Part shown: piece after piece, positions 3,056-30,861 of the stretch
Layout: each line of letters begins with the position of its first letter
Position numbering within the stretch: position 1 is the first letter of the stretch
From: a virus
Virus record (IMG/VR): IMGVR_UViG_3300042503_001656
Coordinates: 1 to 64,000 of that record
Length of the DNA stretch: 64,000 bases
Direction: 5' to 3' (one strand)
Made by a program: the position numbers and the translations under genes
Notes under the pieces: model-generated
The model's input: only the letters and a program-made list of their open reading frames with translations
Told to the model about the DNA's origin: nothing
Database searches by the model: none

Positions 3056-4330
3056 TGGAGATTTTGTGAACTCAAAAATTTGCGATTTTGACCCCCCCAG
3101 CCCGTGACGTCCCCCCGGAAGGTTTCACGGGGCTGCCTAGACCCCTTTCCCCGACCCCATACCCCACTATGTACGGCACACGGCATAGCACACACGCAAT
3201 CACATAGCACATACGCAACGCACACGCAAGCACACAGCACACAGCACACACGCAGTGATACACGCACACGCACACACGCACACAATCGCTTATGGGTTGT
3301 ATGGGTTGTATGGGTTGTACGGGTTACGGGTATCGCACACACACGCACACACGCAGTGTGTATCGCAATCGCACACCACACCACATCACACGCAATCGCA
3401 CACATACGCAAACGAATACACACACATCACATCACACAGTGACGTCACACGACAGTGACGTCACACGCAGTGACGCAACACATCATCACATCACGCCATA
3501 ACACATCATCACATCACATCACATCACAACGCACACATACACATACGCACACACAGTGACACATCACATCATCACGCACGTATCGCATACACACATCACA
3601 CGCACACACACGCACACGCATAGTGTCATCACATCACATCACATCACATAGTGACGCACACATAGTGACGCACACGCACACGCAGTGACACACGCACATC
3701 ACACATCACACACACACACGGTGACGCACGCACGCACGCACACGCATAGGTACGCATAGGTACACACATAGGTACACACGCATACACACACGCACACGCA
3801 CATAGGTCGCTAGGCGTCACGGGTTGCCTTCGGGTTACACACACACATAGGTACATACACATACACACACATAGCGCACGCTATGTCACTCACCTACATA
3901 GGCATACACCACATCACCCCATAGGCATACACCCCTACCCCCTATGCCCCCTACCTACATAGCCCACATACATACACACCCCTACACATCAGCTACCCCT
4001 AGTGAGGTGAGGCGCAAGGTGCTATGGGTAGCCCTACGGGTATCACACACATACCTAGTACCCACCTAGTACCTACCTAGTACCTACCTACATAGGTACA
4101 CATACATACATACCTACATACCTGCCTACCTGCCTACCCTATGTACCTACCTGCCTAGTATCCATAGCCCTATCGCCATTAGCCCCATTAGCCCTATCAC
4201 TATGCCCATACATACCACTGTCGTATCCATACATACACGCTACCCATACACACCCCTACATACCCCATTGCCCAATAGGCGAGGGACACCCCACCTACCC
4301 ACACCCCATACACATACCCCATACACAAAT
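3056..4330. repeat. 1.27-kb low-complexity CA-, CATCA- and CTAC-rich intergenic tract
   Basis: No credible gene. The plus strand is built from short imperfect repeats: CACACGCA from about 3180, CACATCACATCA around 3480-3650, then CCTACCTACATA and CCCCATACACAC to 4330. It includes four consecutive TATGGGTTG-type units near 3290-3325 and two TGACGTCA palindromes near 3440-3470. Strong strand bias (C and A on plus). Could be a replication origin, a replication/transcription barrier or a packaging element; the sequence does not decide. Confidence 0.8.
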
Positions 4331-21965: not shown

Positions 21966-22008
21966 AATCTCACCACTACGGGAGCCCCGCCCCCGTAGTG
22001 GTGAGATT
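21966..22008. terminator. 17-bp palindrome with AGCCCCGCC loop
   Basis: AATCTCACCACTACGGG/CCCGTAGTGGTGAGATT; the last stem base is the first base of the next -35. Confidence 0.7.
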
Positions 22009-22037
22009 TGTCGGCTAGGGGTGGGTCGTGATAAGTT
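22008..22037 (+). promoter_or_regulatory. Cassette promoter (long leader)
   Basis: TTGTCG, 18-bp spacer, TAAGTT; about 127 nt of leader before ATG 22171. Confidence 0.75.
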
Positions 22038-22170
22038 ATTTACAGACAAGGAAGTAAGCCAAGTCGGTGGGGAAGCCTAGAAAGCACCACATTGTTGAAG
22101 CCGAGAGGTGGAGATGTGAATGACGGTGTAGCCCACATAAAAACCACCCAACAACAGCGAAAGAGAAAAA

Positions 22171-22287
22171 ATGGGATACGACTACGATTACGACTGGGAC
22201 GACCGAGACGAACTCGCAGGTCATCACGCCGCAGGCGCAGCCGAGGCACGAGCTGAGGACGAGCTGGACTGGGAAGAGGAGGAATAA
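22171..22287 (+). CDS. 38-aa acidic protein
   Basis: MGYDYDYDWDDRDELAGHHA, Asp/Tyr-rich, acidic. RBS AAAGAG upstream and AACAGCGA in the leader. Its long untranslated leader (22044-22170) is unusual for this array. Confidence 0.55.
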   Translation: MGYDYDYDWDDRDELAGHHAAGAAEARAEDELDWEEEE

Positions 22288-22292
22288 CCAGT

Positions 22293-22328
22293 CCCCTACG
22301 GGCGTAGCCCCGGCTTACCCCGTAGGGG
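22293..22328. terminator. GCCCCG-containing palindrome
   Basis: CCCCTACG/CGTAGGGG with GG/CC extension around GCGTAGCCCCGGCTTA. Confidence 0.6.
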
Positions 22329-22332
22329 TGAT

Positions 22333-22362
22333 TTGTCGGCTAGGGGTTGTCTTTGCGAGAAT
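22333..22362 (+). promoter_or_regulatory. Cassette promoter, weak -10
   Basis: TTGTCG, 18-bp spacer GCTAGGGGTTGTCTTTGC, GAGAAT; leadered gene starts at 22407. Confidence 0.55.
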
Positions 22363-22406
22363 GCAGGAGTGAACTCCATTGGGGGGTTCAGGAAGGAACA
22401 GCGATT

Positions 22407-22670
22407 ATGTGTCAATGTGAAGACCGACCCTGTTGTGGTCACCCAGCAGAGGAACTTGCTGATGCTCGTTATTGGGCAGAGCGTGAGTATTACGGCGATG
22501 ATTATGACCGTGATTACGACGAATACGACGGAAGCGACGAACGCTGTGAGGGCTGTGGGGGAACATTTGATGACCCTGAAGACGACGAAGCGTGTCTCTG
22601 TCGTGGCACCGATGGCTCTTGGGGGCGTGAAGATTCTGCTCTTGAGTCGTCGCTTTTTGGAGATTGCTAG
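22407..22670 (+). CDS. Acidic zinc-binding-like protein, 87 aa
   Basis: MCQCEDRPCCGHPAEELADA ... RCEGCGGTFDDPED ... CLCRG. The MCQCxxRPCCGC-type opening and CxxC knuckle recur in actinophage proteins. ATG 22407 has AGGAAGGA upstream; an overlapping frame starting at 22333 is rejected. Confidence 0.75.
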   Translation: MCQCEDRPCCGHPAEELADARYWAEREYYGDDYDRDYDEYDGSDERCEGCGGTFDDPEDDEACLCRGTDGSWGREDSALESSLFGDC

Positions 22671-27761: not shown

Positions 27762-27791
27762 TTGTCGGTTAGGGGTGGGGGGTAGTAAGGT
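27762..27791 (+). promoter_or_regulatory. Cassette promoter driving structured RNA A
   Basis: TTGTCG, 18-bp spacer GTTAGGGGTGGGGGGTAG, TAAGGT; no protein gene follows. Confidence 0.75.
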
Positions 27792-27798
27792 GGTTCTT

Positions 27799-28006
27799 GT
27801 GAGGGAGACCCACCGCCTCTCCTCCGATACAACCGAATCGCACCAGTCCCTCCGCAGGATAAGGCTCTGGACAGCAAGCCTCTGATGGGCGTACGACCAT
27901 CAAGCATCCGCCACAGTCCACCCGTCCTCCCTCTCGCGCGATAACTGCTCTAGGCTCGGGGGTGCTAGCCCCAGTATCGGAGGTGGGGCGGGGGGTCTTT
28001 TTCTTT
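27799..28006 (+). ncRNA. Structured RNA A (novel family, paralogue of RNA B)
   Basis: About 208 nt from the predicted start of transcription to a T-run. The ends pair: GACCCACCGCC (27806-27816) with GGCGGGGGGTC before TTTTTCTTT, and CTCCGATAC (27822-27830) with GTATCGGAG. Internally it contains GGATAAGGCTCTGG, CCGTCCTCC and GGGGGTGCTAGCCCC. RNA B at 29433 keeps these blocks and the closing helices but with different paired bases, and the shared GGATAAGGCTCT lies in different frames in the two, which argues against coding. Not a family I recognise. Confidence 0.7.
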
Positions 28007-28036
28007 GTGCCAAAAGCGGGGCTTGGCACAAAGAAA
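28000..28036. terminator. GGGGCT-loop palindrome after RNA A
   Basis: TTTCTTTGTGCCA/TGGCACAAAGAAA. Confidence 0.7.
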
Positions 28037-28038
28037 GT

Positions 28039-28068
28039 TTGTCGGTCGTGGGTGGCCTGTTCTAAGAT
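28039..28068 (+). promoter_or_regulatory. Cassette promoter
   Basis: TTGTCG, 18-bp spacer GTCGTGGGTGGCCTGTTC, TAAGAT, 6 nt to ATG 28075. Confidence 0.8.
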
Positions 28069-28074
28069 TGTCTT

Positions 28075-28377
28075 ATGAAAACAACAGCGAACAACGAAAC
28101 AAGGGCAGCAATGAACGCTGCGTATCTAAACCCATTCGTCACGACATTGACTCTTGACGAAGTGCCGCACAAACGCAAATACACAAAAGAGCTGCGGGCT
28201 GGAGATTTCGTGGCCGTGTTTGTCAGCACCTCTCAGAAAGTTTGGGAAGGCTATTTTTCTTGGAAAGAAATCCGGACGATTGCTGCGACCCCCCAGGCCT
28301 ATGTCCTGAAGTTCACAGACGGAACAGACGAACGACACCCAAAGTTCTCAGCAGGTAAATGGGAAGTGATGAAATAA
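28075..28377 (+). CDS. Hypothetical protein, 100 aa
   Basis: MKTTANNETRAAMNAAYLNP ... LRAGDFVAVFVSTSQKVWEG: helix then SH3-like beta strands. Unknown. Confidence 0.7.
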   Translation: MKTTANNETRAAMNAAYLNPFVTTLTLDEVPHKRKYTKELRAGDFVAVFVSTSQKVWEGYFSWKEIRTIAATPQAYVLKFTDGTDERHPKFSAGKWEVMK

Positions 28378-28408
28378 CCCGCCGGAAATTCCGGCAGCCG
28401 CACGCACG

Positions 28409-28431
28409 AGTGGCTAGCCCCGCTAGCCACT
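28409..28431. terminator. CCCCG-loop palindrome
   Basis: AGTGGCTAG/CTAGCCACT. Confidence 0.7.
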
Positions 28432-28458
28432 AATACGTGAGTGCTCCTCTTTCGTAAA

Positions 28459-28488
28459 TTGTCGGTTAGGGGTGGGTGGGTGTAATGT
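28459..28488 (+). promoter_or_regulatory. Cassette promoter
   Basis: TTGTCG, 18-bp spacer, TAATGT, 7 nt to ATG 28496. Confidence 0.8.
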
Positions 28489-28495
28489 TGGAGAC

Positions 28496-28792
28496 ATGAA
28501 CACAACAGCAACAACACACACACAGTCAGCCCAACTAATTGACGATGCAACCCGTGAGGGTCGCCTCTATCACTTCAACGGTGGGCAGGCATACATCAAA
28601 GCAAGTGAGGACGATGTTCTCCTAATCATTGACATGACACAGGAAACACCCGACTTCACTTACCACTATGGTGAGTTTGCCTCTAACTACTTCCGTAACA
28701 ACCACCCACAGCCCACAGACAGGGAACCACTTGTTCCGTTCTACGCAGAAGTGGACAAAAGAAAATTGTCGGTTCAGGGTGGGAAGAACTAA
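28496..28792 (+). CDS. Hypothetical protein, 98 aa
   Basis: MNTTATTHTQSAQLIDDATR ... HYGEFASNYFRNNHPQP. Its 3' codons (LSVQGGKN) are formed by the next gene's promoter. Confidence 0.7.
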   Translation: MNTTATTHTQSAQLIDDATREGRLYHFNGGQAYIKASEDDVLLIIDMTQETPDFTYHYGEFASNYFRNNHPQPTDREPLVPFYAEVDKRKLSVQGGKN

Positions 28793-28795
28793 GAT
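28766..28795 (+). promoter_or_regulatory. Cassette promoter inside the upstream gene
   Basis: TTGTCG, 18-bp spacer, TAAGAT, 6 nt to ATG 28802. Confidence 0.8.
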
Positions 28796-28801
28796 AGAGA
28801 C

Positions 28802-28984
28802 ATGGAAACAGCACAAGCATTCATCATCGTCACTTGGTTCTTGGTCAAGTGTGCAGGACTCGCAATCTTTGCAGTCGGCGCATACACCACTATCCAATGG
28901 ATTAGGAAAAATGTCTCATTCTTCACTTACGAAGATGTAGACCCATCAGAAGACCCCGACTGGGTTCGGGAAAACTACGGATAA
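28802..28984 (+). CDS. Small membrane protein, 60 aa
   Basis: METAQAFIIVTWFLVKCAGL AIFAVGAYT forms one or two transmembrane helices; acidic cytoplasmic tail (EDVDPSEDPDW). Unknown. Confidence 0.65.
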   Translation: METAQAFIIVTWFLVKCAGLAIFAVGAYTTIQWIRKNVSFFTYEDVDPSEDPDWVRENYG

Positions 28985-29051
28985 CAATCCGTAGACAGCG
29001 ACAGCGAGAAAGTTCTTGCTCCCAGTTTGTCGCTGTACTGGTTGAGCAGAA

Positions 29052-29085
29052 AGAGAAAGAGTCACTTTCGGGTGGCTCTTTCTCT
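29052..29085 (+). terminator. Intrinsic terminator
   Basis: AGAGAAAGAGTCAC pairs with GTGGCTCTTTCTCT. Confidence 0.75.
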
Positions 29086-29109
29086 ATGTGGAGCCCCGGT
29101 TCTCCGGAC

Positions 29110-29313
29110 AAAAAGAAAGAGCCCCAGCAATAAAGCTGAAGCTCTTCTCTCCTTGTGACTCACCATTAGAGCTCTCAAGGAAGAGCTTATGTCTGGTCGT
29201 GAGCCAATCCAGCAAGGGGGACTTCCTTACCCGATAGTTGGTATCTGCCGATGTCCCTAACCCAATCGAGCTAAGTACGGTTTCGTTCCTCAACAGCAGT
29301 GTCCCTGACTGAT
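29110..29313 (-). ncRNA. Candidate minus-strand small RNA
   Basis: Bounded by a consensus promoter at 29320-29348 and an imperfect 10-bp hairpin (GAGCTTCAGC/GCTGGGGCTC) followed by TTTCTTTTT. Any ORF here would start upstream of the predicted transcription start, so noncoding is more likely. Lies between structured RNAs A and B. Confidence 0.4.
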
Positions 29314-29319
29314 AGGTAA

Positions 29320-29348
29320 ACATTACCAGCATTTCTCCAGCTTGTCAA
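29320..29348 (-). promoter_or_regulatory. Consensus sigma-A-type promoter
   Basis: TTGACA, 17-bp spacer, TAATGT on the minus strand; unlike the cassette type. Confidence 0.5.
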
Positions 29349-29396
29349 CTCAAATAGTCACGGCCTCAATCTAGGCAACGGGGCTCATTTCCCGAT

Positions 29397-29426
29397 TTGT
29401 CGGGTCAGGGGGGGTGGTGATAAATT
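29397..29426 (+). promoter_or_regulatory. Cassette promoter driving structured RNA B
   Basis: TTGTCG, 18-bp spacer GGTCAGGGGGGGTGGTGA, TAAATT. Confidence 0.75.
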
Positions 29427-29432
29427 GGTCTT

Positions 29433-29641
29433 GTGAGCGAGGCTCTTCGCCTCTCCCACACACAACATAAGTGCATAGTCTCCCTTCTGGATAAGGCTCT
29501 TGTCACTGCGATAGTCCCTCCACTCTCCGGAAGTGCGATACTCCCTCCAGTCAGACAATCCGTCCTCCTCTGAATAGACCTCTCCTTATGGGGGTGACGA
29601 CCTCGTGTGTGGGTGGGGCGAAGGGGCTCGCTCTTTCTTTT
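29433..29641 (+). ncRNA. Structured RNA B (paralogue of RNA A)
   Basis: About 209 nt. Closing helix GAGCGAGGCTCTTCGCC pairs with GGCGAAGGGGCTCGCTC, followed by TTTCTTTTA; the inner helix CCACACAC/GTGTGTGG replaces the CTCCGATAC/GTATCGGAG of RNA A, i.e. compensatory change. Shared unpaired or junction blocks: CGCCTCTCC, GGATAAGGCTCT, CCGTCCTCC, GGGGGTG, GGTGGGGCG. Same promoter type and same length as RNA A. Confidence 0.7.
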
Positions 29642-29732: not shown

Positions 29733-30035
29733 ATGGAAACAGCAACAACATTGGAAACATCAGTCGGCAACCAACTCCCAAAGGGAAACGGCTCATTCTC
29801 GGTCACTACGATTGTCAATGGACTGATTATCACGCCAAGCAACTCATCAGCGATTAGTCAAATCAACTACCTCGCTGATGACAGCGTTCTTGTCGTGACA
29901 TACAGCAACGGTGGTATGTACCACTACAAAGAAGTCCCAGCAACGGTGGTATTCCACTTATTGGTTGCCGAGAGTTTTGGAAAGTTCATCAACGCACACA
30001 TCAAGCCACACTACGAGTTTCGCAAAATCTGGTAA
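29733..30035 (+). CDS. KTSC-domain protein, copy 1
   Basis: 100 aa. METATTLETSVGNQLPKGNG leader region, then SSAISQINYLADDSVLVVTY ... MYHYKEVPATVVFHLLVAES ... GKFINAHIKPHY, matching the KTSC domain (PF13619; short domain found in phage and lysyl-tRNA-synthetase-associated proteins, function unknown). About 70% identical by eye to copy 2 at 30565. Confidence 0.8.
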   Translation: METATTLETSVGNQLPKGNGSFSVTTIVNGLIITPSNSSAISQINYLADDSVLVVTYSNGGMYHYKEVPATVVFHLLVAESFGKFINAHIKPHYEFRKIW

Positions 30036-30564: not shown

Positions 30565-30861
30565 ATGGAAACAGCAACAACATTAGAAACATCACTCGGC
30601 AACCAACTTCCTTCGGGCAACGGTACTTTCACTGTCCTTGACAGTGGAAACCTCATCATCAGACCAACCTCATCAGCAATCAGCAAAGTCAATTACCTCA
30701 TTGACTCGCAAGTACTTGTTGTGAAATACAACGGCAGTGAGACCAAATACTTCTATCGGAATGTTCCCGTAGCAGTGGCGTTCCACCTGCTAATCGCTGA
30801 CAGTTTCGGCAAGTTCATCAACGCTCACATCAAGCCCAACTACGAGTTCTGGACAAGTTAG
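30565..30861 (+). CDS. KTSC-domain protein, copy 2
   Basis: 98 aa. METATTLETSLGNQLPSGNG, then SSAISKVNYLIDSQVLVVKY ... KYFYRNVPVAVAFHLLIADS ... GKFINAHIKPNYEF. The whole unit (parS-like site, promoter, N-terminus, KTSC, terminator) repeats that of copy 1, so it arose by duplication of the cassette. Confidence 0.8.
   Translation: METATTLETSLGNQLPSGNGTFTVLDSGNLIIRPTSSAISKVNYLIDSQVLVVKYNGSETKYFYRNVPVAVAFHLLIADSFGKFINAHIKPNYEFWTS

Follow-up and report, generated by a model that had tools for sequence, protein, structure and literature searches.

Predicted rod-shaped RNAs with self-complementary tips in viruses of freshwater actinobacteria

The rod RNAs described here are, judged by comparison of their sequences, a previously unclassified family in viruses of freshwater actinobacteria, about 200–250 bases long and with no database entry. 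Two of them, RNA A and RNA B, lie in a stretch of 64,000 nucleotides (hereafter the window, meaning the whole of the DNA analyzed) that belongs to a virus record of 118 kb, in which a myophage tail sheath and a terminase are encoded. Comparison with homologues from other phages demonstrates a phage-restricted family with a common predicted structure, a defined strand, no apparent coding capacity, and a palindromic tip. We propose, the case standing in even balance, that RNAs A and B represent a new family of self-dimerizing rods, which phages encode and which would serve as a trans-acting scaffold or decoy early in infection. Freshwater actinobacteria are among the most abundant bacteria of lakes, and their phages have barely been explored. 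Known non-coding RNAs of phages are few, with 21 described by 2021 (PMC8545117).

Two cassettes carry an RNA in place of a gene

The early-type region of the window contains more than 40 cassettes whose promoter consists of TTGTCG, an 18-nt spacer, and TANNNT, with an ATG 6 or 7 bases past the promoter in most cases (leaderless genes). Two gene-less cassettes instead carry an RNA, at 27799 (RNA A, 208 nt) and at 29433 (RNA B, 209 nt). The 5′ end of RNA B falls at the exact place of the cassette ATG, 6 nt past the −10 box, and that of RNA A 1 nt later, while each RNA ends at its own terminator, composed of the closing stem and a U-tract. The two RNAs, 64% identical, are homologues and make up putative non-coding transcription units; their folding energies give z values of −2.95 (RNA A) and −5.94 (RNA B) against dinucleotide shuffles. 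The initial annotation had placed both RNAs behind a cassette promoter in lieu of a gene; this was verified, as were the coordinates, homology, end-to-end helix, and T-run that it gave for them. Among the homologues no open frame is conserved, and stops occur at differing places. A short leaderless peptide starting at the GTG was considered and rejected, as stops and frames differ and the GTG is absent in three members. The features of the two units are as follows (window positions).

27762..27791, + strand: RNA A promoter, TTGTCG, 18-nt spacer, TAAGGT; one of the >40 cassette promoters, spacer identical
27799..28006, + strand: RNA A, whole
27801..27830, + strand: RNA A closing stem, 5′ strand (helix 1; 16 of 25 pairs change on both sides in 9 sequences)
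27834..27839, + strand: RNA A helix P2, 5′ strand (covarying helix 2; partner at 27953–27958)
27844..27855, + strand: RNA A module M, CAGU-CCC-UC-CGC (partner GCG-C-GA-UA-ACUG at 27936–27947)
27857..27867, + strand: RNA A module X strand 1, GGAUAAGGCUC (partner CCGUCCUCC at 27922–27930)
27883..27902, + strand: RNA A apical hairpin, UGAUGG-GCGUACGA-CCAUCA (palindrome CGUACG at 27890–27895)
27959..27972, + strand: RNA A 3′-side hairpin, GGGGU-GCUA-GCCCC
27974..28003, + strand: RNA A closing stem, 3′ strand, followed by the U-rich tail (own terminator)
29397..29426, + strand: RNA B promoter, TTGTCG, 18-nt spacer, TAAATT
29433..29641, + strand: RNA B, whole
29435..29463, + strand: RNA B closing stem, 5′ strand
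29466..29471, + strand: RNA B helix P2, 5′ strand, CAUAAG (partner CUUAUG at 29585–29590)
29489..29499, + strand: RNA B module X strand 1 (partner CCGUCCUCC at 29560–29568)
29505..29551, + strand: RNA B, two back-to-back M modules, CUG-C-GA-U-AGU-CCC-UC-CACU ... AGUG-C-GA-U-ACU-CCC-UC-CAGU
29521..29535, + strand: RNA B apical hairpin, CACU-CUCCGGA-AGUG (palindrome UCCGGA at 29526–29531)
29591..29604, + strand: RNA B 3′-side hairpin, GGGGU-GACG-ACCUC
29605..29633, + strand: RNA B closing stem, 3′ strand, followed by UUUCUUUU

Close relatives and covariation

Relatives were sought in IMG/VR by means of degenerate DNA patterns and covariance models, and all of them are IMG/VR contigs. The close relatives, of about 208 nt, come from a near-identical phage (L001/L002), L097, L094/L095, L099, L121 with a second copy (L251), and L207. 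These nine close relatives represent one WhiB-bearing myophage family: WhiB, a mark of actinophages, is encoded on all seven of their contigs, and the seven have early genes or terminase in common with the window's phage.

In the alignment of nine sequences, which was fitted to the structure, 95.2% of pair cells hold standard pairs, as against 46–54% when the pairing is slid by one to three columns; both partners change in 28 of the 44 pairs, and not one of these measures was attained in 500 shuffles. A plain MAFFT alignment of seven sequences leaves the picture unchanged, with 95.1% paired and 16 pairs changing on both sides. The compensatory helices that had been claimed from the A–B pair were borne out with seven and then with nine homologues; covariation and further homologues, which the initial annotation had named as the support to look for, were both obtained. 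L251 and L207, left out of the covariance model R2, still match at an E value of about 1e-25, and covariance model scores are about 200 bits on the + strand and at most about 31 on the − strand. When long-armed rods were sought by structure only, the scan recovered the known RNAs; its sole other returns were three isolated hits and one region of simple sequence. The − strand of the window at 3188–3987 is simple-sequence and GTGTGATGTG-like, and scores as self-complementary over long spans.

One family member, H1, has no U-tract past its stem. Rfam searches with RNAs A and B, at the gathering threshold and at E up to 10, returned no 6S, GOLLD, ROOL, or other family, in agreement with the earlier failure to recognize one. 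The comparisons support the assignment of the RNAs as putative structured non-coding RNAs of no known family.

Architecture of the rod

The predicted fold is composed, in order, of a closing stem of ~28 bp, an invariant CAAC, helix P2, a 3′-side hairpin, and a rod of recurring internal loops. The closing stem contains an invariant CGCCU opposite GGGCG, and the loop of the 3′-side hairpin is situated 38–41 nt from the 3′ end. Module X is defined by GGAU-AA-GG-CUC opposite CC-GUCC, with GATAAGGCTC invariant in 9/9 sequences, and is duplicated in L121 and L251. Module M (C-GA-Y-stem opposite stem-CCC-UC) occurs once in RNA A and twice, back to back, in RNA B, L099, and L207; its loop letters are constant and its flanking helices vary. 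A pattern search for a palindromic double M module produced no new member.

This fold alters the reading of several conserved blocks that had been described as single-stranded. The closing stem has CGCCTC on one strand and GGGGCG on the other, and GGGGGTG comprises the 5′ strand and the start of the loop of the 3′-side hairpin; GGATAAGGCTC is opposite CCGTCCTCC in an internal-loop module. Absent from the initial annotation are the two features that say most about the RNAs, namely the recurrence of internal-loop modules and the self-complementarity of the apical loop.

A self-complementary loop at the tip

The apical loops of the close relatives all contain a six-base palindrome (9/9), located at nt 92–94, and six different ones occur among them (CGUACG, UCCGGA, ACUAGU, UCUAGA, GCUAGC, and CCUAGG). 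The probability of this pattern by chance is about 3e-7 for random loops and 1e-5 for shuffled loop letters, values that pertain to an observation first made after the fact in 9 RNAs with 6 distinct loops; an independent set was then tested. Each of nine further distinct loops, collected blind to palindromes, is also palindromic. All 15 distinct apical segments thus far compared have a 6-nt palindrome at the center of the rod (shuffle mean 1.96, maximum 7 in 4000), and nine different palindromes are distributed over these 15 tips. Across ACUAGU, UCUAGA, GCUAGC, and CCUAGG, the outer pair is found in all four Watson-Crick forms. The usual tip is a 7-nt loop consisting of one base and the palindrome, out of register with the stem, so the palindrome is not merely the middle of a longer inverted repeat.

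Variation of the loop sequence with retention of its self-complementarity is as expected for kissing-loop pairing between two identical RNAs, and formation of a kissing-loop homodimer through the palindromic tips is predicted with considerable confidence; the palindromes could alternatively serve something other than dimerization. Copies within one phage differ in their palindrome in the case of A and B and of L121 and L251. The two copies on one contig have the same palindrome in L352 (CCCGGG) and in L357/L370 (CCATGG), and avoidance of mixed dimers is therefore not a general rule. The dimer-initiation hairpin of retroviruses likewise forms a kissing loop through a six-base palindrome, the sequence of which may change while it remains self-complementary. 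That hairpin is located within genome RNA and has a 9-nt loop with flanking purines, whereas the phage tip, usually a 7-nt loop of one base plus palindrome, is at the end of a free-standing RNA.

A second group of longer RNAs

A pattern scan with module X only, in which hits were selected for closing stem and module with no regard to palindromes, extended the family to a second set in other phages (L302, L349, L352, L388, L333, L319/L345/L376, L372, L305, L307, and L357). The RNAs of this set are mostly about 230–250 nt, and a central apical palindrome is present in every one; L305, L307, and L357 have less certain full-length folds than the rest. In this wider family the internal-loop modules, GAUAAGGCUC/CCGYCCUC, occur in tandem. 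Module X, the side hairpin, and the tip are common to both groups, and an extra CGACGG hairpin and ACATAG above the stem are confined to the second. Common descent of the two groups appears probable from these shared features, rather than from an overall alignment. The second subfamily has no match in Rfam at the gathering threshold. WhiB is encoded on 14 of the 15 further contigs searched and on 21 of the 22 RNA-bearing contigs searched overall.

A TATAAT-like box lies just upstream of several second-set RNAs. More generally, a promoter-like box precedes the RNA in each case looked at (L121, L099, L302, and L307), and the phage groups seem to have their own cassette promoter sequence, quite different between groups.

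Distribution

BLAST of 50,697 phage records gave no distant DNA match, and a model search of six cultured phages, including Gordonia, Brevibacterium, and Dishui Lake relatives, gave no homologue. The 296 genomes of the presumed host order (freshwater actinobacterium), searched with stricter filters and with no cellular positive control, contained no homologue. A pattern search over 84,980 species returned 72 hits and no homologue; the best of these hits, in Methylobacterium indicum (L144), scored 18 bits with model R1, was missed by R2, and was taken as chance. L144, L152, and L165, all from M. indicum, carry an element with CGCCTCTCC and GGATAAGGCT at the same spacing, the resemblance of which to the phage RNAs is probably fortuitous.

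In the structure-only scan, no convincing rod was detected in a 160-kb relative or in two 80-kb relatives. The rod RNA is not universal among relatives and is accessory. Comparison of neighboring genes revealed no protein linked to all RNA copies. Paralogous small KTSC-domain proteins are encoded immediately after RNA B, at 29733–30035 and 30565–30861 of the window, and similar proteins are found near the RNAs in several relatives, not all.

Comparison with 6S RNA and Ms1

The suggestion that the RNAs are 6S-like holds for their length, closing stem, small 3′-side hairpin, and apical rod, and fails for the central bubble. Like the rods, 6S RNA (RF00013) is about 180–210 nt long and forms an end-to-end rod with a long closing stem, and its order of closing stem, 3′-side hairpin, and apical stem is present in the rods; the hairpin is 38–41 nt from the 3′ end here and 43 nt in folded E. 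coli 6S. What defines 6S, a large central bubble that is unpaired and mimics an open promoter, is nevertheless absent, because the region is closed by P2, the pairs of which covary: 92.5% of the cells of helix 2 are paired and 4 of its 6 pairs change on both sides (9 sequences). Unlike folded E. coli 6S, the rods have no long unpaired stretch opposite the side hairpin. 6S RNA itself binds the RNA polymerase holoenzyme and is a template for pRNA. The rods are further set apart from it by their repeated loop modules, palindromic tip, and phage encoding; no report of a phage-encoded 6S was found in the open-licence literature. To our knowledge, neither palindromic tips nor repeated modules are known for 6S or Ms1.

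RF00013 gave no hit to RNAs A and B at the gathering threshold or at E up to 10, which is weak evidence, since it also found none in five actinobacterial genomes. The latter result is in line with the use by actinobacteria of Ms1 instead of a canonical 6S (PMC9130861). Ms1, which binds the RNA polymerase core, is a structured actinobacterial RNA of 6S-like layout, and it differs from the rods in its length of about 230–300 nt, central bubble, extra hairpins at the 5′ and 3′ ends, and origin in a host gene (PMC9130861). Set beside this description, RNAs A and B are ~208 nt and without end hairpins.

It is unlikely, on these grounds, that the rods are 6S- or Ms1-like decoys of host RNA polymerase that would mimic promoter DNA, hold the polymerase, and be released by copying from the junction CAAC. 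Their length, long closing stem, apical rod, and position of the 3′-side hairpin would suit such a decoy, as would the invariant CAAC directly above the closing stem and the replacement of canonical 6S by Ms1 in actinobacteria (PMC9130861), but the large unpaired bubble is missing from a region in which the pairs covary, 6S goes unmatched even at E up to 10 (with the reservation about RF00013 given above), and neither of the two RNAs is known for palindromic tips or repeated modules.

Proposed role and remaining alternatives

The RNAs have their own promoter and terminator, small takeover-type genes as neighbors, and an accessory distribution, which together make a trans-acting scaffold or decoy our best guess; we hold this role to be equally balanced between right and wrong, and expression is presumably early. 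According to this proposal, the phage's strong cassette promoter would make each RNA, among small leaderless genes that are usually expressed early. The RNA would fold end to end into a rod, with the U-rich tail of the ~28-bp closing stem also terminating transcription, and would include a three-way junction with the small 3′-side hairpin and then an arm of conserved internal-loop modules. The variable loop at the tip of the arm, always self-complementary over six bases, would allow two copies to pair, giving a two-fold symmetrical double rod in which each module is present twice. The dimer would act in trans, binding a host (or phage) protein or machine through the modules during takeover. 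More tentatively, the rods may be a widespread self-assembling family of phage RNAs, with one or more rods in each phage, the symmetrical dimers of which form a bridge that unites or captures two copies of a host machine as infection begins. If true, this would constitute a takeover device made of RNA rather than protein. The conserved self-complementary tip provides a direct prediction that is testable in vitro without phage culture.

A second use of the tip would be as a seed: the hairpins could be a kinetic trap that opens from the palindrome into a long double-stranded dimer occupying a factor that binds double strands, for example RNase III or a defense sensor. Near end-to-end self-complementarity combined with a palindromic tip is the usual design for such a conversion, known from retroviral dimer sites, but the conserved internal loops and side hairpin imply selection for the folded rod, and we consider the extended duplex quite unlikely.

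Also improbable is a structural or packaging RNA that oligomerizes in the manner of phi29 pRNA or the ROOL/GOLLD cages. The self-complementary loops could serve such assembly, and in phi29 pRNA, also a small RNA of a phage, self-association likewise proceeds through pairing of loops; those loops are non-palindromic, however, and pRNA forms rings on the packaging motor, whereas a palindromic loop by itself gives dimers and not rings. GOLLD and ROOL are phage-associated, structured homo-oligomers of unknown function (PMC12286853), but at >600 nt they are three to four times longer and have far more complex folds. Further against packaging, the rods have no link to a virion gene, and none was recovered from relatives whose terminase is closely similar, although most of these records are fragments.

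The locus might instead act as DNA, in the form of a cruciform or a recombination or replication site, given that its long inverted repeat, though imperfect, is centered on a palindrome. We judge this highly improbable: G-U pairs are kept, the covariance model is strongly strand-specific, a promoter precedes and a T-run follows most of the first nine copies, and the palindrome of the tip does not usually line up with the stem. A sponge for Shine-Dalgarno sequences, acting through CCUCC stretches and sparing the leaderless genes of the phage, is scarcely credible and was rejected as a general role, because CCUCC, somewhat over-represented in some members, is absent from H1 and H2, and its stretches lie inside the conserved modules.

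Other features of the early-type region

Two cassette promoters at 22008–22420 of the window have no start codon at the usual place. One is followed by a leader of ~130 nt that precedes ATGGGATACGAC, and near 22333 there is a shorter leader of structured appearance; an Rfam search of these leaders gave no match. Between 16100 and 43100 of the window, RGGGTGGG is conserved within the promoter spacer, invariably 18 nt long, of the >40 leaderless cassettes. In the same interval, at least 19 hairpins have a GCCCCG or CGGGGC loop, and these may represent a uniform set of terminators.
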